Positions 9,745-62,598 of a stretch of 64,000 nt of DNA are shown here, piece by piece. Origin of the DNA: Enchytraeus crypticus (taxonomy: Eukaryota > Annelida > Clitellata > Enchytraeida > Enchytraeidae); NCBI GenBank assembly GCA_905160935.1, contig CAJHZI010000495.1, positions 2,381,501 through 2,445,500 of the forward strand. The letters run 5' to 3'. The notes under the pieces are model-generated. The model was not told the DNA's origin. It did no database searches and was given only the letters and a program-made list of their open reading frames with translations. The translations under genes and the position numbers were made by a program. Each line of letters starts with the position of its first letter. The stretch's first letter is position 1.

Positions 9745-12700
9745 CAATCACCACCATCACCACCACCACCACGGTGATGGTGATGATGGTGGTCTCAACA
9801 CCACCACCACGGACGCTAGGACAAGCACATCTCACACGCACCTCAGAGCAGGACCGCCTGCACTGGGTTGTTGACGAGAAGGTAGAGTTGTGCTCACAGG
9901 CGAGGCACTAGATGTCGAGTTGGACAAAAGTTCTTTCTCCAGATTACTCCTTTGTTGCTTTAATTCTATATTAATTAACCAACAAAATTAATCAATCAGT
10001 AAATCAACCAGTGTGTATTAATATATCGCTCACTCAAGTCAATATGTGAATTATTGGACATGATAGCAAGTGCAAAATAGCTCCTTAAAATGGGATAAAA
10101 ATATTTACCAATAGTAGGATTCACTGAAACGCAGGTAGCTTAATGATGATGCTCAAGACATTGGTATATATGGACTACATCAAAACACTCACCAAAGAAT
10201 TCTCAATGAAGGTAAAGAATTATTCTAAAATATTTTTCATGAAAGGCCAAAAATTTCTTAGAGGCGTCAAGCGCGATATAGAAAATTCATGTTAGAAAGC
10301 AAAATTATTCGTAGAAGTGGTTTTTAATTTATAGATTTTATTACTTTTGCATAATGGTAGTAATTTTTCAATTATCATTCACTAATAAAAATTAGATAAA
10401 CCAATTTCACAGCGCTAGATATTGGCTTGGACAACGATCCAACAGTTTAACAGCTTATAGCGTAAGAGGCATACCACTGAGAGAGGGCTCTGTGACCCTA
10501 TCCTGATGCTCTATCTCTCCACCGAGACAATTCTGTGACAATAAACACACAACACCTATCTAAATGTGCTACACATCACCTATCTAAATGTGCTACACAA
10601 CACCTATCTAAATGTGCTACACAACACCTATCTAAATGTTCTACACAACACCTATCTAAATGTGCTACACAACACCTATCTAAATGTGCTACACAACACC
10701 TATCTAAATGTGCTACACAACATCTATCTAAATGTGCTACACAACATCTATCTAAATGTGCTACACAACACCTATCTAAATGTGCTACACAACACCTATC
10801 TAAATGTGCTACACAACACCTATCTAAATGTGCTACACAACACCTATCTAAATGTGCTACACAACACCTATCTAAATGTGCTACACAACACCTATCTAAA
10901 TGTGCTACACAACACCTATCTAAATGTGCTACACAACACCTATCTAAATGTGCTACACAACACCTATCTAAATGTGCTACACAACACCTATCTAAATGTG
11001 CTACACAACATCTATCTAAATGTGCTACACAACACCTATCTAAATGTGCTACACAACTCCTACCTAAATGTGCTACACAACTCCTATCTAAATGTGCTAC
11101 ACAAAACCTATCTAAATGTGCTACATAACACCTATATAAATGTGCTACACAACACCTATCTAAATGAGCTACACAACACCTATCTAAATGTTGTACACAA
11201 CACCTATCTAAATATGCTACATAATACCTATCTAAATGTGCTACATAATACCTATCTAAATGTGCTACGCAACAGCTATCTCTGTGAAGAGTGTCATAGA
11301 TTGCAAGTGTTGAGCAAATAGAAATAGATATAGTTTTCTCACTCTCTCTCTCTCCTCTCCCTCTCTCTCTCCTCTCTCTCTCCTCTCTCTCTTTTTTCTC
11401 CCTATCTGTAAAACACACACACATACGCACAAGCACAGTGTAAACAATGTTTAGTTTTGAGAATATCAAGCTCTTTGAATTGCACAGTATTGTTCTATCT
11501 AATGTCATAACTAGTGGCACACTGAACCTGCAGAAAGGTTATGTCGTCCAGCAGACAGGCGACCTCTTGTGACAGAACACTTCTGAAAGCAACGACATCA
11601 GTATCTTTAGTATAAACATTAAAACAGGAGCATTATTACATTTTTTATAGTTCATTATTAAATAGTTCAATAATATTATTAAAAATTATGAATAAATAAA
11701 ACTTATATTATTATTAATAGTACATTTTAAAATAGTGAAATTGAATTATTAATAATTAATATTATTATTAATAATGCAATATTAAATAGCTCAGCAAAGT
11801 GAATCATCTCTGTACAGACCATTCAGGAGACAATACAATCAGTAATATAATAACAATGATATCACTCATAATTGAAAGACAATTTTGTCATCTTGTGCCA
11901 TCAGGTCGTAGACACGCATAAAGGAAACTCCTCCACTTTACCCCATCAAGTGATTGCTCTTTGAGAGCAGAAGCTCCAGGCCTGTTGCTCATTCCACCTC
12001 ATCCAGTCATCTTACTCAGTGCCATCCTCTGTCTCTCTTCCATTAATGTATCAGCATGACTCCATTTTCCAGAATGGCAGTAAATGAAAGACAATAACGG
12101 AAGATAATTCAGTGTGATGGCTGATTAATTAGGCTGCCAATCTATTAGTACAGCTGAGCAATGTAGCAACTAATGACAATACACGACCGAGTGGAAAGAG
12201 TTGAACCAAGGATTAGTGAATACTGTAATTATAAATACCCGCTGTGTTAGCTACTAGCCTATACATTTAATTTAAAGAGAATATAGTAAGAATTTTTGGG
12301 AACACCTAGATCATAAGAAAATTTGGTCTTAAAAACTGAAAGATTGAGAGTGAGAGAGACAAAAAGTAAGGGAATGGAGAAAGCACACACTCAATGAGCA
12401 AGCAACAGAAAAGTGAGAGGCATAATGAATGATTGTAGTCAATTTTCACAAATTAATGTTCGTTATTTTCTTCTAAATTTTTTCAATAAGTATAGTTCAG
12501 TATTAGAGACTGACTTGAGATGTTGTAGAATGACGTCGATGTTCTCTGCATTGAGCTTAACGTCTCGTAGTCGACTCTCGATCGGTTTCAGACTATGCAC
12601 ATGAAATAGCATCAACAGATCTTTAACCTCTCAGAGAAGTAAAACTAACTGAGAGGTTAAAACATCACTGGCTGATGTTTTTATGTCACATAATCACACA

Positions 12701-26100: not shown

Positions 26101-29100
26101 ACTATATACTATATATACTGCTATTAGATATATTGTTATTAAATTGTATATGAGCTAATGTTATATATACTGTTATTATATACTAGATATACTGCTATTA
26201 TATATACTGTTATTATATATACTATTATTTTATATACTGCTATTTTGCTATTCAGTAGATAATGTATTTCTTTACACTCACATTATTAAACTAGTACCTG
26301 TTCCATTAGTGTGTATTCGTATTGAAAGCTTTGTGTAAAAATACTTTCACTAGCAATTGTAGTAAAAGTCTCGTGCAACAATACTTTCACTCTAGATTTA
26401 GATATTGCTTGTTATTTCAGCAACTGTACAGAACCTGATGGGTATCGTGGTTTTGTGTTTTATAGAGTTTTACGACATCGTCGACTGCAGGAGCCAGAAA
26501 TACTAGAGGGCCAATCGTCGTCATCAGATGATGATGATGATGATAGAGCGGGGACGAGCGAGAGAGCGAGGGGGAGGGGGGTGGAGGTGGAGGGAGAAGA
26601 GATGAGTGAAGAGGAAGAAGAAGAATTAGATGAAGAGGTTTTATATAAAAAATATTTTGTATTTTATACAATTTTATTCTATTTTGATATGAAACTCTCG
26701 CTGTTACTAATTAATTCCATTCCTCATAAAAGTGTGACTATTCACTGTCAAGGTTGAACAATATAACCAATAGGAAACAAGTATTTAATATTAATATTAA
26801 ACATTTCAATTTTAAATGTCAATTTTAATATTAAACTCTCGCTGTTACTGATTAATTGTATAGTATTGTGGATTTTGTATGTTAAAATGACTTTGAAAGC
26901 GAGTGAGCCTGTGATTTGAACCTCACGTGAACTGTTTCACAGGACAGTGTTTAGGAAATCAGAAATTATATTGTAATATTTTGTTTTTTACAGTTCTATG
27001 TATATTCAGAGTATATACTATTTTAAAATTATACATTTGGAATTAATTTTTTCTCATAACAATGAGATCTTAATCATAAATGATTAAAATACAAAATGTG
27101 ATTAAAAAATTAAAATATTAAAATATAAAATGTAATTTTTAAATTAAATGATTAACATATAAAATACGATTAAAAAATTTAATAATTAAAATATAAAATG
27201 TGATTAAAATAGTAAAAAATTAAAATATAAAATATGGCTGTTTTCTCTGTTTACTATAATGATAATCTAATTTGACAAAAAAGCTGATTTATGTTGATTA
27301 ATTGACTTAATGCTAATTTCAAGTAATAATTTTTGAGTTTCTATATCTTCATTGATTAATTTTGTGTTTTGTTGATAGGAAATTGAGAGGAGAAGAAATG
27401 CATTGAGACAGAAAGTTAAATCTATAAGAGAAGAGGTTTGAAGTTTAGACTATTATATATATATTATATTATATATATATTAAATAGGCCCTTGTAGGGA
27501 GTCTAGTTATTCTCACATCAGGAATTCCCCCGGATAAAGAAAGTAAATAAGCATTATAATGAAATGATCAACTTTATTAATACTTATCACTTGTTTAAAT
27601 ACCACACGTTTAAATGGTTAGGCATTTTAGACCATTTTCCGTTTAACCTGTCCAGTGAATGTCCAAGATTTTACTTTCAGATCAGCGTGGCTGGGATTCG
27701 AACCCACGAGGGTTCTATTCACCTCAGGATCTGTCATTTAATACTTCATGACGTTACCCTACGCTATTAAGATATTCTATGTTCTTGACTTAGTGGTTGT
27801 TATTGACTGTTGTTGACTCAGTCATTGGTTGTTGTTCAGGAGTTGCTCGACGTAGAGGAGGAGAAGTTGAGTGAGGAGGAACCTGGAGAGGCGGAGTCCT
27901 CCGAGTACGAGGAATACTCCGACTCGGAGGAGGAAGATCTGCAGCCGCGGCTTAAGCCAGTTTTTGTTAGAAAGTATGTAATCTGCTTGTCTGTGATTGG
28001 TGAAAGTAAAACGCCAACTTTTGTTGCTGATTTCCTCTCTTGCTGGTTTTTTCAGTGATGGGATGAGCTGGATTTGAAGTTTGATCATAATGGTTTGAAG
28101 TTAGACAGCTAACTGATCATTCTACTGACCAAACACAATAACTTATCATTCTCTGCCATTGTTTCGACAGTTTAGTTCAAAAATCCTAGCAACCAATGTT
28201 AGTATCCTTTTTGTTTTATTAAGTTTATTATTACCTTTTTAATCTATTTTGCATTACACATCTCTACTATCAGAGGCTTCTTACTGACATTGTAAAATTA
28301 ATTTGATTTATATATTGTAGTTATATTTGCTGTTTGTGGACTGTTTTATTATAACATTATTGAATTGATTGCTTGATTGATTGTCTTGAAGGAAAGATAG
28401 AATAACGATAAAAGAGAAAGAGAGTGAGCAACAACAGAAAGATTTAGAGTTGGAGAAGAAGAGAGTGGCCAATGAGAGGAGAGCACAGACGTTAAAGGTA
28501 TTTAGTATTCATTTCATTATTTCTTCATTACTTTAGTTGTTGCATGATCGACTAATTGATTGATTGTTAGATTGGGTAACTGATTGATTTTGATGAGTTT
28601 TTTGATTGATTTTTTAGTGAATTTGTTTGATTGATTTGATTTTTGTTGGTTTTTTCATTTATTTTTCGTTCAATTTCCATTTATCTCATTCATTTATTTG
28701 ATTTGTGAATTATTGTTCGATTATTGATTGACTAATCATTGCCATTTTCCATTGAATCCCAGCTAGTCTAGGTTCGAGATTAGAAAATTGATCGATTGAC
28801 AGAGTGAGTGAGTGAATGAGCGAGCAAACGAGCATTTAATTGACAGACTCACTGACTGATCTGTTGATTGATCGATCTATCAATTGGTCAATAGATTGTC
28901 TGATTGATTATTTGACCCTTTGGCTCACTGATTAATTGTTTTATTAATTTACCGATTGGGTTATCGATTCATTGATTATTATTGCTCTGTTAGAAGCCAA
29001 GATGAGGAGGGAAGCAGGTTAGCAGAAGAAACAAGGATACAATGATCGATTGATTGGTTAATTGTATAATTAATTATCAATGCATTTAATTATCAATTGA

Positions 29101-32100
29101 TTGATTGATTGATTGATTGATGGCTGTGAGGCAGAGTTAGGAGGGAGGTATACGAGCAAAAGAAGGCGAAGGACACGGGTGACTGACTGATTGATTTATT
29201 GACTGATTGATTGATGATTGATTGATAGCTGTTGGAGGCAGAGATAACGAAGGAGGTAGATGAACAGAAGAAGGCAGAGGACACTGGTGACTGACTGATT
29301 GATTGATTGATTGATAGATGTTGGAGGCAGAGATAAGGAAGGAGGTAGATGAACAGAAGAAGGCTGAGGACACGGGTGATGGGCTCAACTCTAATGATGA
29401 GAACGATGAGGAAGCTTACGAGAGCTGGAAGACCAGAGAACTGAAGCGTATCAAGAGGAGCAGAGAGGAGAGAGAAAAGTTTGTACTGCTATAATACACA
29501 TTACATGTTTATAAGTTATGTGGAGTAAGCTTTGGTGTAAGCTATGTGGTGTAAGCTATGTGGTGTAAGTTATATGGCGTAAGCTATGTGGTGTAAGTTA
29601 TGTGGTGTAAGCTATGTGGTGTAAGCTATGTGGTGTAAGCTATGTGGTGTAAGCTATGTGGTGTAAGCTATGTGGTTTAAGCTATGTAGTATTAGCTATG
29701 TAGTATCAGCTATGTAGTAAAAGCTATGTAGTATAAGCTATGTAGTATCAGCTATGTGGTGTAAGCTATGTGGTGTAAGCTACGTGGTGTAAGCTACGTG
29801 GTGTAAGCTATGTGGTGTAAGCTATGTGTTGTAAGCTATGTGGTGTAATCTATGTGGCGTAAGCTATGTGGCGTAAGCTATGTGGTGTAAGTTATGTGGC
29901 GTAAGCTATGTGGTGTAAGTTATGTGGTGTAAGCTATGTGGTGTAAGTTATGTGGTGTAAGCTATGTGGCGTAAGCTATGTGGTGTAAGCTATGTGGTGT
30001 AAGCTATGTAATGTAAGATATGTATTATAATCTATATAGTATAAGCTATTTAGTATTAGCTAGGTAGTATCACCTTGGCTTGCAGATTTACGTCCTTGTC
30101 GTTAGTATATCTCTGAAAAGAAAATTGATTGAAATGAAATTCAAAAGTGAAATGAATATTTTTTGCAAAAGCTCAACACTTTAACTTCACAGCGCATTAG
30201 ATGCAAATTAGTATATTTCTTATAAAATATATATTAAGTGCGTATTTACATTTATTCCCCGTATAAGTCGAGGCTGTTTAAGTGTTATTAGTGACTTTGT
30301 TTAATTGTACACCAAAGTTAATGTCTGTCTTTCTTGTATAATGTGTAATATTGTGGCAACGAAATCCTTGTATTGCTCTTTGGCTGACTTTTAATATCCC
30401 AGTATAACGTTATAATAAGTAATCTATTAACTGACTGGATTGATTGAGCTAAATTTCCATTAAATAATTGTATTCATTCTACTAGTTGTTGGTCTGATAA
30501 TTGTTATTTGAGTCAAATGTAATATGCTGAATTTCATAGACAATCAATCCTCAAATCATTTAGTTATTTTATATTGACTTGTTAGTGATGTCTTAAAAAT
30601 CATTCAGTCAATCTATCAGTTAGCTATTAACTAACTAATAATGCTACAATTATTTTTATATTGACCAGTCACTGATGTCATTGGAACGAATCAATCAATG
30701 ATTTAGTTACATTATGATGACGTGTCACTGATGTCTTAGGATGGAGAAAGACAAGCAGGAACTGGATAGGATACACAACATGACGGAGGAAGAGAGGCGA
30801 CAGGAGTTGAAGATGAATCCTAAGGTCATCACTAACAAGATGCAGAAAGGCAAATACAAGTTCCTACAGAAGTACTACCACAGGGGAGCCTTCTTTCTGG
30901 TAAGAGCTTCATTACGTCACGCCATCTCCTGCTATATGACTGATGTTTCTTATTATTTAATCATCATCATCATCTTCTTCCCTTGAATCCCAAGTCCACC
31001 AGGATCATGATACGAATACATAGATTGTCTCAAATAATCTCTGTCCCACATCACATCATCAGTCAATCCCCTATTTGAGACTTTTCCATTCGTTTAAATT
31101 GTGTAGCAATTTCTGGAGCGCAGGCGCTCACCAACCGAATGCCCTTTCTGACGTTGAGTTTCTTATTATTTAATCACTAAATTTTAAAAATAAATGATAC
31201 TAATATTTATTTACTGGTATTTCCTGAATAAAACATCTGGAAGAGCCTATTTTAGATTTCAGTGAGTTTTGTATAAAAATGTTTGCATTTTATATTAATA
31301 AATATTTACATTTTGATCTTAGCTATGATTCAACTTTTTCCCGTTGTCGTTTAGGTAATTAACTCACACTGTTTTTGCTTTACGATTGATGATGATTTCT
31401 AATTTCTACGTAGGATAAAGACGATAATATTCTACAGCGTAACTTCGCTGAGGCGACTCTGGAGGATCATTTTGATAAGACTGTACTACCTAAAGTCATG
31501 CAGGTCCGTACTTTATCTTTCTCAATGACTGTACCATAAAAAGTATTGTAGAATTTTAAATACTCAGCTATACACTGTATACAATTTCCTCATGTATTCC
31601 TTTGCTATAAATAAAATGTATTGTTATTCGTTAATTTCATCCTTAGATACGTCTTTATCTTTATTCCTTTCTGACTGCATTGCTATCGATCTCGTTTTCT
31701 CTTAGTTATTTGCATATGCTAGTGGTTTTTGATGGTATACACTGTGTTTATTGTAACTGATACCCCACATTATTTTACAGTAAAGTCGTAAAGAGTTGAC
31801 CGATGGTCTTGCAATTTACAGTACTCGACCAGCATCCAATTCTACCAAACTTAGAGAAATTTCTGTTCATTATCTTTAATAACGTGAAAGTTATAGGTTT
31901 GTGAATAGGAGTTGGGTCCGTTAAGAAATTTCCAGTACAGGAATACGGGCGTGATACATGCAGCGTAAAATTACCTCTATCAAAGTAATAGCTAACACAA
32001 ACATAAAATTTCTGCTAATGCTATTTTGAAGAGCAATCATTTCTTTTCAAAACGACATCAAATACTTGCAGATACGTTCTTAATTGACAAAGTTATTGAA

Positions 32101-32911
32101 CTTTTAATGTATGCATTGCATATCTGGGTACAACTGCTATCACAGCAGCTACTGCAGCAGCATTCTCTAACGCCACAGTTAAAATAACTTCTTCGTTTAT
32201 TCTCATAAATACGTTCTTCGAATGTATTTATGAGTTGTCTGTTGCTCTGATCAGGTGAAGAACTTTGTATTTATGAGTTGTCTGTTGCTCTGATCAGGTG
32301 AAGAACTTTGTATTTATGAGTTGTCTGTTGCACTGATCAGGTGAAGAACTTTGTATTTATGAGTTTTCTGTTGCTCTGATCAGGTGAAGAACTTTGTATT
32401 TATATGAGTTGTCTGTTGCTCTGATCAGGTGAAGAACTTTGTATTTATATGAGTTGTCTGTTGCTCTGATCAGGTGAAGAACTTTGTATTTATGAGTTGT
32501 CTGTTGCTCTGATCAGGTGAAGAACTTTGTATTTATATGAGTTGTCTGTTGCTCTGATCAGGTGAAGAACTTTGTATTTATGAGTTGCCTGTTGCTCTGA
32601 TCAGGTGAAGAACTTTGTATTTATGAGTTGTCTGTTGCTCTGATCAGGTGAAGAACTTTGTATTTATGAGTTGTCTGTTGCCCTGATCAGGTGCAAGAAC
32701 TTTGTATTTATGAGTTATCTGTTGCTCTGATCAGGTGAAGAACTTTGGACGGTCAGGCAGAACGAAGTACACCCACCTGGTGGATCAGGACACAACGAGC
32801 TACGAGAGCCCCTGGGTCACAGAGTCGACGATGAACCTCAAGTTCCACAACACCAAGGGTGGCGGCATGAAACAGGTCTTCGAACGACCTGCCGTCAAAA
32901 AACGAAAATAG
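23149..32911 (+). CDS. MFAP1: MFAP1, spliceosomal B-complex protein, 11 exons
   Basis: Eleven exons join in phase: 23149-23212, 24058-24109, 25466-25657, 26466-26637, 27379-27435, 27840-27973, 28392-28497, 29318-29478, 30740-30899, 31414-31503 and 32735-32911. They give 454 aa (human about 439). The N-terminus has [16 protein letters not shown], then [20 protein letters not shown]. Acidic Asp/Glu runs follow, [22 protein letters not shown], then the basic helical region [12 protein letters not shown] and the highly conserved end [55 protein letters not shown] and [20 protein letters not shown]. The family is a nuclear protein of the spliceosomal B complex that contacts Prp38. The name 'microfibrillar-associated' is historical. 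The extreme C-terminus is more divergent than the rest. The start is an ATG in CAGCATGGCT context. The upstream sides of exons 8 and 11 carry tandem copies of their own acceptors, described separately. Confidence 0.95.
23325..23395 (+). repeat. Repeat family D (SINE 3'-end fragment)
   Basis: GACGTCCCTGACATCATCCC then GGATGAGGAAACGGACGTTAAA, in MFAP1 intron 1. Confidence 0.7.
24440..24535 (-). repeat. tRNA-like SINE fragment
   Basis: On the minus strand the sequence reads GGGGATATGGTATAACGGTT and AGAGCGTTTGCCACG, like the 5' half of a tRNA with an A box (TATGGTATAACGG). The B-box region is decayed. It lies in MFAP1 intron 2. Confidence 0.45.
26075..26245 (+). repeat. AT-rich tandem repeat in MFAP1 intron 3
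   Basis: Irregular repeats of TATATACTGTTATTA and TATATACTGCTATTA over about 170 bp. Low-complexity DNA. Confidence 0.8.
27550..27782 (-). repeat. SINE family A, minus orientation, in MFAP1 intron 5
   Basis: Reverse-oriented copy: the plus strand shows ATTATAATGAAATGATCAAC at the left and GGGATTCGAACCCACGAGGG (B box reversed) near 27692, ending in TACGCTATTAAGA. It ends about 60 bases before the exon 6 acceptor, so it has not disturbed splicing signals. Confidence 0.85.
28984..29317 (+). repeat. Tandem decayed copies of MFAP1 exon 8 start
   Basis: Just upstream of true exon 8 (29318) lie copies of its first 60-70 bases, separated by ATTG-repeat spacers. A close copy at 29229-29291 starts TTGGAGGCAGAGATAACGAA and ends GACACTGGTGACTGA. 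A worse copy lies at 29122-29185, and a faint one at 28984-29045. The 29229 copy keeps a full acceptor (TTGATTGATAG). It reads in phase from exon 7 as [21 protein letters not shown], stop, and has no donor. The copies look like unequal duplication mediated by the ATTG tracts. Confidence 0.85.
29525..30070 (+). repeat. 14-bp minisatellite in MFAP1 intron 8
   Basis: About 38 copies of GTAAGCTATGTGGT, with variant units (TAGTATTAGCTATG and TAGTATCAGC) near 29690-29755 and after 30020. It begins about 45 bases after the exon 8 donor. Each unit contains GTAAGC or GTAAGT, a good match to a 5' splice-site consensus. Confidence 0.95.
30968..31165 (-). repeat. Repeat family C (SINE-like), minus orientation
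   Basis: The plus strand reads CCCTTGAATCCCAAGTCCAC, then TTGTCTCAAATAATCTCTGTCC, CATCATCAGTCAATCCCC, and GCGCTCACCAACCGAATGCC then TTTCTGACGTTGA. It matches 42735-42950 in the other orientation over most of its length. It lies in MFAP1 intron 9. Confidence 0.75.
32223..32734 (+). repeat. Minisatellite of 11 decoy 3' splice sites before MFAP1 exon 11
   Basis: Tandem units of 43-45 bp, each with TGAGTTGTCTGTTGCTCTGA, TCAG and then GTGAAGAACTTT, the first four codons of the last exon (VKNF). AG-ended acceptors fall before 32255, 32298, 32341, 32384, 32429, 32474, 32517, 32562, 32605, 32648 and 32691; the true one is before 32735. From a decoy the reading frame gives [12 protein letters not shown] and a stop (or VKNFVFI and a stop in the 45-bp units). 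Only the last acceptor gives the conserved [11 protein letters not shown] continuation. All twelve keep the same AG and pyrimidine context. Confidence 0.95.
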
Positions 32912-33602
32912 CTCTGTAGGCATTGGGCCGATATTTATTACTGTGACAGTTGTTGAATTGACTACTCTGTTATAGAGAGGGGATAGTTGTGATACTGCGG
33001 TATTTGTGGTAGTGTAGAGTGTTGATGAGAGGGAAAAAGTATCTTTAATCTTATTTATATGAGACGCTGAAAGGCGTCAGAAACATCAGTGGTTGGCGGT
33101 GTTTGTTGCACTTAGCACACGAGTCTAATGTGCTTAACTCTCATAGAACTATTACGCACTATGCTGAGTCCTGTAATTGAAAGATTTTGTCTGCTCAGAT
33201 TTTTTGTAGTGTTTGGCTTTGAGAGTCTGGAGGTGTAAGTTTTTAAAACCACTGTTCTAATAACTAGAGCATATGATCATTTATCCCGACCCTTCCAAAC
33301 TGGGATTCAAGGGAAGTTGATGATGATGAGATTAACCTGAGCAAGTCAACGTTCCATGTCTAAAAATCGTTGGACAGAATCTATTGAACATGTCTCGTTG
33401 ATCTTGTTGTGATCAATCAGCTGCATGTATGTATGAGCCATTTATGTGCGTATACTTTGCCTGATTGTAAGTACTGATATCAGTTACGGGTATTGTCTTG
33501 ATGCAAGAGTCTTGCTAGATGTATAAAGTTTCGGCATCTGCTTCCTTACGCTAAGTTTATGTCAGAGGTATATCAGAGTTCATCATGTTCATGTAGTCTC
33601 TA
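32912..33602 (+). other. MFAP1 3' UTR (predicted)
   Basis: Non-coding DNA from the stop codon to the first good AATAAA (33603). It includes a short family C fragment near 33280-33325 (GACCCTTCCAAACTGGGATT). Confidence 0.5.
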
Positions 33603-33608
33603 AATAAA
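33603..33608 (+). promoter_or_regulatory. Polyadenylation signal AATAAA of MFAP1
   Basis: AATAAA 692 bases after the stop codon. No earlier canonical hexamer was seen in the 3' flank. Confidence 0.45.
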
Positions 33609-33799
33609 ATATCTGTAAATAATATTTACAAGATTGAATTGTGTTTTTATGGGTCAACTTTGGCTTAAATGCGTTCGGTTTTTATAAAACAGCCGGTCGC
33701 CTGAATGAAGATTTTTCTTGATAATCTGCTTGGTTTCGTTTCAGCAGCTATTTTTCATGGTTAACTATTCAAGTGAATAGTAAGTAAAAATTCAACATA

Positions 33800-33818
33800 A
33801 GGTGAAGAACTTTGGACG
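33800..33818 (+). repeat. Isolated 19-base copy of the MFAP1 exon 11 acceptor
   Basis: AGGTGAAGAACTTTGGACG is identical to 32733-32751 (acceptor AG plus the exon 11 start) but lies about 890 bases downstream of the stop codon. It matches the true exon (TTTGGACG), not the array units (TTTGTATT). Confidence 0.75.
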
Positions 33819-34405
33819 ATATGTAAAAGTAATAACTGGTACCTAGGTTTTACTAGGTTTTTTTCAATAATTCTAATTGATCTCACTTTGTAGTGTAAGC
33901 ACAAGACCTGATAGTACAACAGTAATCAGGAAGAGTTTATAAAGTTAGAGGACAGTGTTGTAAGTGATTCTAAAATGAAACGTTCTGCGTTGATTGATAC
34001 GCCTTGTGACGAATTAATATGTTGCTAAGTGCACTAGATTTTAAAATGAGGTCTATCTCAATTGATTAAGACTTGAATCATTTTTCAACATCTTCAGAAA
34101 CTGATCCAATTGGCTGGACTGACATTCGAAGCAGTAACCGCCTGCTTGTCGGGCAAGTATTGTGCTAACTTCGCGCTAAAGGATTTTTATGCGAATAGAA
34201 ACAAGTACCAGTTTACTAACCTTCCTATTTTAACCTGAGACTGCAGCTCTATCAGGAACGTCCAGCGCGGACTTTACTAGTGGCACTTTATTCTTCGTGT
34301 ATTAAGTATTAAATATACTCGGTGGCATACTTAAACTTTATCTAAAATAATTCATGATTCATGCAAACACGAAGAGACAACTTAAAGACTACTTCAAATT
34401 CTATT
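33819..34405. other. Intergenic DNA
   Basis: Nothing supportable was seen. Confidence 0.4.
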
Positions 34406-34517
34406 AAAGCTGGTAAAGCTAAGCTTAACGCAAGTTTCCTCACTCGAATGCGATGTCAGGGACGGGCGACCCCAGGATTTGAACCCCACACATAATGATC
34501 CGCGGTCGAGTATCTAA
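34406..34517 (-). repeat. SINE family B, minus orientation
   Basis: The plus strand shows AAGCTTAACGCAAGTTTCCT, CACTCGAATGCGATGTCAGG, GGATTTGAACCCCACACATA (B box reversed) and GATCCGCGGTCGAGTATC. Confidence 0.8.
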
Positions 34518-58992: not shown

Positions 58993-61900
58993 ATGAAACA
59001 AATGCGATCCGTGGACATCTACGTATTACTGTGGTTACTGATCGTATTCACCATCCTAAACCATTGTTCAAGGTTTACAAGAGCCGAATGCTTGGATGAA
59101 GTCGCCCCTCCAGCAGATAAAAATGAAACAGGTTTGCGAATCTTTTAGTCATCTACGTAAGCAACATTAATTAAATTTAAAGTAAATATATTTCAAATTA
59201 CTGAGCTTAAATATATCAAATATATAGGATTTAATATTTAATTCTTAATGACAGGTGAAAAATATTACTGAAATATCTAGGCTACATGTACAGTAGCTAT
59301 CTACGTCATAAAATTTGGCCTTAGGCCTATATATGCGAGCGTACGTATATGATTAAGTAAGTATTTTAAATAATTAAATAAAAAATCATTTATAATTAAA
59401 ATGTTAAACACATGCATACTGTATTGCGACTACAGCCAATTTTCACAAGCAATAGGTCTACTTATAGACGAGTTAAATTGGTATTTTCTGAAATACGCTC
59501 TACAGCAATTACATATTTGACCGTGTAGGCCTACATGGCCATATGCAGGCCCTATATGGTGGTTACTTCAACGTTGAAAGAAATTTTCAGCAATATCATA
59601 CTTTGCATCATTTGTTATTAGCTTAAGTTAACGAGATATGCTAATATTACTATTATTAATATTGGATTACTTTAGAAAAGATAGGCTAAATCGGTGCAAT
59701 TTAAATTATGATATATATATATATTTATATATATATATATATACATTATTGCTTCTTTTGCAAAGGATGTATATGTACAAATAGGACACTGCTGCTACTT
59801 ACATGTATATGACTATTCTTGCCTGCATCTATAAGAAAACATTAACATATATTAAAAATTTACAGAACTAAATTTTGGATATTGTTTCAGGTTTCCATTG
59901 TGCAAATAACTGTATGTGCTATCTTCTTCCAAAGAATAAAGGATTAAGAGTGATCTGTAAGAACACGGGTCAAACTGAGGTGCCACGTAATCTTCCAAGA
60001 AATACTGTGAAGCTAAATCTTGATAATAACAGAATAAAAAGTCTCACAAAATCGGACTTCAAAGGATGCCTCTATCTCGAAAAACTTCTAGTAAAATATA
60101 ACGACCTGAACAGCATTGATAATCTGACCTTTGATGAAACTGCTAGACTGAGGGAATTACATTTGAATTATAATAATATCAGTTTCAGCGTTGATAATTC
60201 GGGATTTTTAGACCCTATGGGAAATATTACGAGCCTATTTATCGAAGGAAATCCTCACGTAGATGATAGGATCTTTGAAAAAGTTCCAGGCTTAACTTGG
60301 TTGGCCCTGGATAGATCTGAAACAGTTAAATTCGGAAAATCATTTCTATTACTACGTAATCTGAAGAGTTTGTCGCTTCATGGAAGGTTCAATAAAATAG
60401 GAAATGATTCATTCAAAAATTTGGAAAATTCTTCACTCAAAAGGTTAGTAGTGAGATCAGAAAATACCTTAAATGAAACGGAGCCGGGAGCATTTTCAAG
60501 ACTTCGTAATTTATCTGAGCTAGATTTGAGCTTTAATAGAGGAATTGGATTTGATATAATTTCACGTGCCTGGTACGGTCTGCAGTTTACAAGTATACGC
60601 AGTCTGAAATTGACAAGTGTAATACCAGTTGCAAGCGCTAATACAAAGCTGGAGGAAACATTTTACAGTTATTTAAATAGAACCAACATAACAGAATTAC
60701 AACTTAATAGAAACAACATCTTAAGTATCAAAGAAGGATTCGCCAAAGCATTTCCTAAACTTCAATATCTAAATCTCTCTTATAACCTTTTATCGGAGTC
60801 AATGGATTTAATAAAGGAATTGTCAACAATGAGGGAGCTCAAAAGTGCCGACATAAGCTACACTACTAAAACACTGCCTGATAATACCGATGATTCAAAT
60901 ACGTATGGAAGCAATATCCTCTCGGATATAAATTATCAAGGTCTACCACGTAATCTTAATATAATGGAGTATTATCCGATAAATCTTGAGTGTAAGTTTG
61001 AGAAATGGAAACCTTGTCGAATTAAATATCTGCATCAGCATAGAAACATTAATCACAATACATCTATTGATAATCATATCTCTGACCTTTCACCCTTTGG
61101 ACCATGGTGTATGTCATTTCCGAAAAAAATTGAATCAGTCAACTTGACTTCAAGCCTAAATTACAATCTAAAAAACTTTCCACAGATCGTAGTTCTAAAT
61201 AAAAATAACGTGTTCAGTAAATTCGTGTATCGGTCCAATGATATAAAACAATTTCGTGGACCTTTGGTTTTCGCATATCTTTCCAATTCTACACCTATTT
61301 CCATTGATTTTGGAGATAACGGCGCCAATTGCATCTCATCGGAGTTTTTAAGGAAAAGCATTCAAAGAGGAGCGAATATATCACGCTTAATTCTTGATGG
61401 AAATGATTTGGGAGGACAACTCCAAGTCGATCAGAATGGATCAATATTCGAAGACTACAAAGACTTAATTGAGCTAAATTTAGCCAAAAATAATATAAAA
61501 ACCTTGTTTCCTGATACATTTAAAAATCTGAATAAATTAAAAATATTAAATTTAAGCTCAAATTCCCTGCGAGATATTGCATTTGACTTCTCCAAGATGC
61601 AGCATCTGAAGCATTTGGACCTTTCGTTTAACTTGCTAACTGATTTTGCTTTTGACCAAGCAGTACGTGAACAGATTTCCCAGACATTCTCTTCGTCAAA
61701 TATGATTCTTAACATAACTGGGAATCCACTCCCATGTACTTGCACGTCTCTTCCTTTCCTAATCTGGTTGAATGAAAATAAGCAACATGTAAATAATATA
61801 AATGCTAGCTACTGTACTGAATTAAATAAAACTCAAATATATTTCGATGAATTGGAAGATGTCATCATTAAATCGCTGACATTCACCTGCCAATCGGACT

Positions 61901-62598
61901 CTCTGCTGCTTGTATGTGGCATAATGCTAGCTACAGTAGTAATGGCAATTGTACTGTCAGTGTTTCTGTATCGTCACAGATGGGATATTAGATATTGGCT
62001 GTTGAATTTCAGGCGAACTAAACTAAATTATCAACGCCTGATTAATCGAACAAAAGGATATCGATACGATGCATTTGTTTCCTACGATTCTCGAGACAGA
62101 AGCTGGGTTACTCAAGAACTCATTCCTAATTTGGAGGTGAGAGAAACCGAAGCTGCTAATGCCACTGAATCAGGTCAGCAGAAACTTACGTTGTGCATTC
62201 ACGAGAGAGATTTTTTAGCAGGTGAATCTATTGAAGAAGAAATAGTGACGAATATTCGATCAAGTCGAAAGGTGCTGCTAATATTGACTCGCAATTTCCT
62301 TAAGCGTCCTTGGTGCAAATTTGAATTGGAAATGAGTCAAGTGGAAAGTTTTGAAAGAGGCTGGAATATTATAATACCGATAATGCTCGAGGACCTTTGT
62401 CTGGAAGAAATACCTGGTGCACTGCAAATGCTCGTAAGAAAGAGGACTTATTTAGAGTGGAAAAACCCGCTTCCGGATAGAAATGATTTCTGGATTCGGC
62501 TAAGGAGTATTCTGGCTGAGGTTGGTCATAAACCCTGCCCCTGTGAGTGTCAGGGAGCTTCAAATAGACGTGATCAAGCCAGTTCTCCGACAGAGTGA
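58993..62598 (+). CDS. Toll-like receptor (LRR-TM-TIR), 2 coding exons
   Basis: Exons 58993-59131 and 59891-62598 join in phase 1 to 948 aa. Residues 1-31 form a signal peptide (hydrophobic VLLWLLIVFTIL). Cys50, 54, 56 and 69 form an N-terminal LRR cap. Many LRRs follow (LPRNTVKLNLDNNRIKSL, LRNLSELDLSF, LKILNLSSNSLRDI, LKHLDLSFNLL). A C-terminal cap (NPLPCTCTSLPF) and one TM helix (about 717-739) come next. The TIR domain (from about 769) has box 1 YDAFVSYDSRD, box 2 RDFLAGESIEEEI and box 3 FW. One C-cap next to the membrane is the single-cysteine-cluster layout. In this family the ectodomain senses ligand and the TIR recruits MyD88-like adaptors; the ligand is unknown. The BB-loop position that is Pro in many TLRs is Ala here. 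The start is the ATG at 58993; the frame upstream has only TTG. Confidence 0.93.
59711..59744 (+). repeat. (TA)n microsatellite in TLR intron
   Basis: ATATAT run in the single intron of the TLR coding region. Confidence 0.85.

Follow-up and report, generated by a model that had tools for sequence, protein, structure and literature searches.

The MFAP1 gene in the window

In a 64,000-nt stretch of contig CAJHZI010000495.1 from the annelid Enchytraeus crypticus (the window, on whose scale all coordinates are given), the gene for the spliceosomal protein MFAP1 carries a minisatellite across the boundary of its last intron and last exon, each unit of which repeats the 3' splice site found there. 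The gene and all of its features described below lie on the + strand, and ten exons were located between 24058 and 32911. Each of the exons from 28392 onward was recovered by tblastn with eight homologues, with at least one match at E 4e-4 or better; the exons at 27379 and 27840 gave weak matches only (best E 0.11 and 0.05, respectively), and the three exons upstream of these (24058, 25466 and 26491) were placed by eye against the human sequence. The first located exon is preceded by an acceptor-like AG, which implies a further 5' exon and would make the last exon number 11, as it had been counted in a preliminary description of this DNA.

That description had also named the gene, and the name is well supported. 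The partial protein encoded by exons 8-11 scores 197.6 bits against the Pfam family MFAP1 (PF06991; curated cut-off 26.8) and aligns with the human MFAP1 chain K of spliceosome entry 5o9z at E 1.3e-79 and up to residue 437. The best-scoring MFAP1 match, among the best 120 of 733, is 68% identical. Exon 8 (29318..29478) and exon 10 (31414..31503) were delimited by tblastn with the eight homologues and by translation, and the donor CAG|GTCCGT follows exon 10 after 31503. Exon 11 (32735..32911) comprises 58 codons and a stop codon, encoding VKNF followed by residues that align with human G384-K437; it is strongly conserved at the protein level and encodes the conserved C-terminus of MFAP1. Downstream, a candidate polyA signal (AATAAA/ATTAAA pattern) lies at 33603..33608, the first of three matches within 32912-34500 and followed by the next at 34308. 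No match to Rfam was obtained at the gathering threshold.

Twelve copies of the last 3' splice site

The minisatellite across the intron 10/exon 11 boundary (32223..32747) was delimited with Tandem Repeats Finder (TRF), which gives 12 copies with a period of 43 and 96% matches, and by a listing of its units. Each unit combines the final 30-32 nt of the intron with the first 13 nt of exon 11 (GTGAAGAACTTTG; 14 nt in one unit), the exon piece having been correctly recognised earlier, although given as 12 nt. The real acceptor AG (32733..32734) is the 3'-most of the twelve and the sole site that yields the conserved C-terminus. It is preceded by eleven decoy acceptors CAG|GTG (32253..32690), whose last G stands at 32254, 32297, 32340, 32383, 32428, 32473, 32516, 32561, 32604, 32647 and 32690, and the spacings from one acceptor to the next, up to the real one, are 43, 43, 43, 45, 45, 43, 45, 43, 43, 43 and 44 bp. 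The presence of eleven tandem decoys and the retention of AG in every one of them, both noted in the preliminary description, are borne out: CAG|GTG occurs in 12 of 12 copies, and the AG/GT splice signals are kept throughout the array.

The twelve sites had been called identical but are not, since only three of the 11 units that follow the first acceptor match the consensus. Three others carry a 2-nt insertion (giving 45 bp), four show a single substitution, and the last, of 44 bp, differs from the consensus by a C insertion and a G->A change; these variants are scattered in irregular order along the array. The upstream pyrimidines, likewise described as the same, form nearly the same stretch in all copies, but units carry substitutions and insertions, and the real site alone reads GTTATC where the others read GTTGTC, giving it an additional A at -17.

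When the 15-mer AGGTGAAGAACTTTG was searched for with up to 2 mismatches, 12 matches were found in the window (ten of them decoys, one the real site and one an isolated copy at 33800), compared with 0.17 expected and a maximum of 1 among 100 shuffles; the decoy at 32690 is absent from these matches because of a 1-nt insertion. As a repeat, the array is far beyond chance. The isolated copy (33800-33818) reproduces 19 nt of the real acceptor and exon 11 start without mismatch (AGGTGAAGAACTTTGGACG) and is situated about 0.9 kb past the stop codon and 3' of the first polyA-signal match. It contains GGACG and for this reason resembles the exon rather than the array, and it is among 30 dispersed same-strand groups of 19-mer repeats that remain after filtering.

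The retention of AG in all decoys was considered as a sign of selection and rejected. The units after the first acceptor have undergone seven mutation events if the 2-nt insertion is counted once, or nine if it is counted three times, and the probability that none of these falls in an AG is 0.72 or 0.65, respectively. Retention is therefore expected 65-72% of the time and is not evidence of constraint.

Acceptors that double as putative donors

A point that is not in the preliminary description is that the sites of the array can be read in two roles, as acceptors and as donors. Exon 11 starts with GTGAAG, and each unit starts with GT and ends with AG, in the form of a GT-AG mini-intron. Read as donors, ten of the decoys give CAG|GTGAAG and the eleventh (32690) gives CAG|GTGCAA. 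The U1 5' end and the donor-matrix values used to score these sites, as well as the branch-point motif used below, do not come from a model trained on this species. On this basis, 11 of the 12 copies form a U1 duplex of -8.4 kcal/mol and reach a matrix score of 7.7, compared with -7.4 kcal/mol and 5.4 for the native exon 10 donor. The latter is not unusually weak for MFAP1, because the donors of exon 9 (-8.0 kcal/mol, matrix 9.0) and exon 8 (-2.4 kcal/mol, matrix 2.1) span its values. In the window as a whole, 0.8% of the 3384 GT sites on the + strand reach -8.4 kcal/mol, the array copies included.

Since the units run from GT to AG, splicing between them would take out complete units without loss of register, and several of them could be lost at a time as one larger block. 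Since a decoy junction regenerates a donor, re-splicing to the correct junction would be possible in principle, judging from the letters of the array.

Features that may bear on the choice of site

The branch-point motif is yUnAy, and a TTTAT candidate is found at -24 or -26 in 12 of 12 sites. As each unit has its own branch-point-like TTTAT, any scanning would be confined to a single unit, and what is chosen would be one whole 3' splice site over another. The preliminary description had seen a conflict between use of the 3'-most site and simple first-AG scanning; this conflict was overstated, given these local candidates and given that published arrays of this kind, the mirages discussed below, are reported to splice normally (PMC3087553, PMC3902484). 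The extra A at -17 is a weak possibility as a discriminator of the real site, and the GTTAT that it creates departs from yUnAy at one position. More generally, terminal-exon definition and exon sequence aid the choice of a 3' splice site.

RNA structure as the cause of last-site choice was rejected as unproven, with the AG paired in the decoys and in the real site alike. In five folding set-ups the unpaired probability of the decoy AG is at most 0.03, except for the first decoy in one of them (0.28), and that of the real AG is 0.00-0.05. An argument against this rejection is that an additional set-up gives the real site as the most open of the twelve in its pyrimidine stretch (0.42), donor region (0.38) and branch-point candidate (0.61); its donor region is also the most open in four of the five set-ups, which does not hold consistently for its pyrimidine stretch. 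Compared with its dinucleotide shuffles the array has a more stable fold (z -4.1, 60 shuffles), but it is not more stable than 12 tandem copies of shuffled units (z -0.19, with 23 of 60 at or below its value), so that repetition alone accounts for the stability of the fold. At the left edge of the array lies a 15-bp hairpin (32202..32234; one G-U pair, 3-nt loop, -16.1 kcal/mol as isolated RNA), whose right arm takes in the branch-point candidate of the first decoy. This hairpin was also considered as a general silencer of the decoys and set aside, as in the local fold the first decoy is the only one that it covers. Its left arm resembles the repeat junction in inverted form (GTTCTTC beside ATAAATAC), for which template switching is a possible origin.

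Predicted consequences of decoy use

The junction with exon 10 reads ATGCAG|GTGAAGAACTTTGGACGG at the real site, ATGCAG|GTGAAGAACTTTGTATTT at a decoy and GTGCAAG at the decoy at 32690. Joining exon 10 (31503) to a decoy would add VKNF, 3 or 8 further residues and a stop in ten of the eleven cases, much as had been described; the decoy at 32690 departs from that description, being frame-shifted and ending after 15 residues. Counted on the alignment with human MFAP1, V380-F383 are kept in ten of the eleven decoy products and everything from G384 onward is lost in all of them, including the loop 385-390 and Y391, which agrees with the earlier claim that decoy use removes the conserved C-terminus.

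In the human B complex, residues 385-390 of MFAP1 are reported to contact U5 loop 1, with K390 inserting into the loop, and Y391 to stack on a base of the 5' exon (PMC10943123), in keeping with the earlier designation of MFAP1 as a B-complex protein. Every decoy frame stops or shifts ahead of this U5-contacting loop, which, with all residues from G384 missing, would be the first thing lost. In Caenorhabditis elegans, mfap-1 is reported to be essential, and a pair of missense changes in an Asp-Thr sequence, described as completely conserved in worm, fly, chicken and human, to be temperature-sensitive lethal (PMC3400559). This pair, D426/T427, probably falls within the VDQDTT motif of exon 11. 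As the first match to a polyA signal past the stop codon is at 33603, a decoy stop would fall within what is presumably the last exon and, as had been proposed, should not lead to junction-dependent decay.

A second array at exon 8 and other features of the window

An array that seems to show the same process of boundary duplication at an older stage, and that is likewise not in the preliminary description, precedes exon 8 (28984..29317). It holds three copies of the acceptor region and exon start, beginning at approximately 28984, 29124 and 29229 ahead of the real exon at 29318, which take in the acceptor and about 60 nt of exon. Identity is 95% over 76 nt for the nearest copy, and a further match has 85% over 71 nt. 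The AG is retained in one of the three, that at 29229 (AG 29227-29228), from which 21 residues would be read before a stop. A decayed mirage in the same gene suggests that boundary arrays come and go.

Minisatellites are common in the window, where arrays with a period of at least 20 cover 3816 of the 64000 bases (6.0%). Two of the 16 MFAP1 exon boundaries tested, a set that omits three boundaries of located exons, fall inside arrays, compared with 0.95 expected (P = 0.25, or 0.17 if the coverage is taken without these two), and this is unremarkable. Beginning 34 bp past exon 8, a 14-bp minisatellite of 38.6 copies (TAAGCTATGTGGTG, TRF; 29512-30049) contains 29 GTAAG and is hence rich in donor-like sequence. 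At 10547-11281 lies a 24-bp minisatellite of 30.6 copies, which is open for more than 200 codons in two + frames and one - frame. An uninterrupted open reading frame of 908 codons at 59872-62598 is Toll-like-receptor-like by its matches, the best-scoring of which is 27% identical over 95% of the query.

Comparison with known systems

In amphioxus, minisatellites that duplicate intron-exon boundaries have been called mirages and described in Adh3, the globin genes BflGb6 and BflGb9, and TnC (PMC3087553, PMC3902484). The BflGb6 mirage joins an intron's 3' end to the beginning of exon 2, in 6 and 3 units on two haplotypes, and the Adh3 mirage has units of 10-72 bp, with AG/GT kept in many mirage copies (PMC3087553). 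The Adh3 data and RT-PCR (reverse transcription-polymerase chain reaction) of the globins are reported to suggest that mirages do not disturb regular splicing (PMC3087553); similarly, the Adh and TnC arrays are said to yield no aberrant mRNAs, and PGBD5 has been likened to mirages (PMC3902484). The MFAP1 array shares with these a unit that spans the intron-exon boundary and the retention of AG/GT. It differs in having 12 copies of 43-45 bp at the last intron of a gene for a spliceosomal protein, in that every decoy would be truncating, and in the AG|GT at each junction that makes each unit run from GT to AG. It is thus best filed as a new mirage minisatellite, a kind of repeat already described, though seldom noticed, and stands out for its many copies and for lying in the gene of a spliceosomal protein.

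Other systems resemble the array in part. Recursive splice sites likewise place an acceptor directly against a donor (AG|GT) that is regenerated on splicing, and in the array this donor is computed to be able to pair with U1; the recursive sites of Drosophila are reported mostly from long introns (PMC8605326), whereas in MFAP1 twelve putative sites made by a minisatellite stand 43-45 nt apart within about 0.5 kb at the end of an intron. Intron gain by AGGT tandem duplication (PMC4974935, PMC3087553) also produces GT...AG units by duplication of an AG|GT segment; here, in contrast, the copies lengthen an existing intron and create no new one. Poison-exon autoregulation (PMC10477243, PMC6547761) is comparable in that an alternative choice in the message of a splicing factor leads to a truncated frame, and different in that the MFAP1 stop is in the presumed last exon, the repeat is probably recent and regulation is hypothetical. 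A literature search, with most subscription papers beyond its reach, returned no mirage outside amphioxus and no account of self-erasing arrays, and a search combining recursive splicing with minisatellites returned nothing related by title and abstract. The "Mirage" of PMC7960049 is the name of a transposon and not a boundary minisatellite.

Interpretation

We consider it probable, at about 0.68, that the array is a neutral and recently expanded mirage, that most MFAP1 mRNA has the correct exon 11 junction, and that decoys are avoided or spliced out. A 43-bp stretch over the 3' splice site of the last intron would have been duplicated in tandem and have grown to 12 near-identical copies, neutrally or nearly so. 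The 3'-most site may be chosen because it alone is followed by a full coding terminal exon and not by another intron-like unit. The array would at the same time form a chain of GT-AG mini-introns, in which an RNA spliced to a decoy could lose the remaining units in register and arrive at the identical mature junction, and truncated mRNA would persist only where the first product escapes re-splicing. Exon 11 is strongly conserved, and the correct junction should therefore be made.

Several points weigh against this neutral reading. Besides the extra A at -17, no sequence feature clearly strengthens the last site, and the copy just before it, with its C insertion, is a weaker donor (-6.8 kcal/mol, matrix 4.1). 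Introns of 43 nt are reported to be spliced in human cells, but the intron concerned is rich in G and is described as having neither a functional 3' splice site nor a functional branch site (PMC4463651), which makes so atypical an intron a poor model for the units. In Drosophila and in mammals, regenerated splice sites have been reported to be suppressed by the exon junction complex (PMC8184009, PMC8605326), which argues against efficient self-correction, and intronic recursive splicing in Drosophila is reported to require a cryptic exon at the ratchet point (PMC8605326); the GT of the next unit, 43-45 nt downstream, could serve as the donor of such an exon. Finally, the array is homogeneous and perhaps young, in which case little can be concluded about splicing today from the earlier conservation of exon 11.

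It is also conceivable, though rather unlikely, that decoys are used substantially and without regulation and that a C-terminally truncated MFAP1 is tolerated. All 12 sites have the AG, nearly the same pyrimidines and the TTTAT candidate, the last is not strongly favoured, and stops in the presumed last exon would not be expected to trigger junction-dependent decay; against this stand the normal splicing reported for other mirages (PMC3087553, PMC3902484) and, in C. elegans, the essential nature of mfap-1 and the temperature-sensitive lethality of the Asp-Thr missense pair (PMC3400559). Distinctly less probable is a self-erasing splice-site buffer, in which entry at any of the twelve acceptors would be followed by ratcheting to the last, rendering the gene insensitive to repeat expansion, and in which the fraction left unfinished might serve as a readout of spliceosome activity that acts back on MFAP1. 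Forward ratcheting is conceivable here because the units are GT-AG and regenerate a donor that mostly scores above the native one.

The preliminary description had raised a self-regulating switch, by which MFAP1 activity would shift the choice between decoy and real acceptors and so adjust the amount of full-length protein. We hold this to be improbable, and the claim is unsupported, since the sequence gives no sign of selection for decoys and the retention of their AG is compatible with neutrality. It is true that MFAP1 belongs to the B complex and touches both U5 loop 1 and the 5' exon with its C-terminal region (PMC10943123), that ten of the eleven decoy products would keep VKNF while all eleven lose G384 onward, with 385-390 and Y391, and that in C. 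elegans a weak uaf-1 mutant seems to need wild-type MFAP-1 in order to use a cryptic 3' splice site (PMC3400559). The structural contacts of MFAP1 are, however, on the side of the 5' splice site, and the name MFAP1 is absent from the papers listed on autoregulation, eight of the 40 that matched. The least credible alternative is that the array or its copy number was created or distorted by assembly, as apparently happened in a genome draft to the BflGb6 mirage of one amphioxus haplotype (PMC3087553); here, the units have distinct variants in irregular order, a second and diverged array is present at exon 8, and the exons on either side are intact and keep the reading frame.

With twelve near-identical and complete-looking 3' splice sites, the locus is a natural competition experiment on the roles of the terminal exon, site order and re-splicing, in which the copy used by the cell could be read directly from RNA. 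The AG|GT boundary suggests why some mirages are tolerated, as any splice between units would leave a correct, shorter array. Across genomes, this predicts that tolerated arrays should be enriched for exons that begin with GT.
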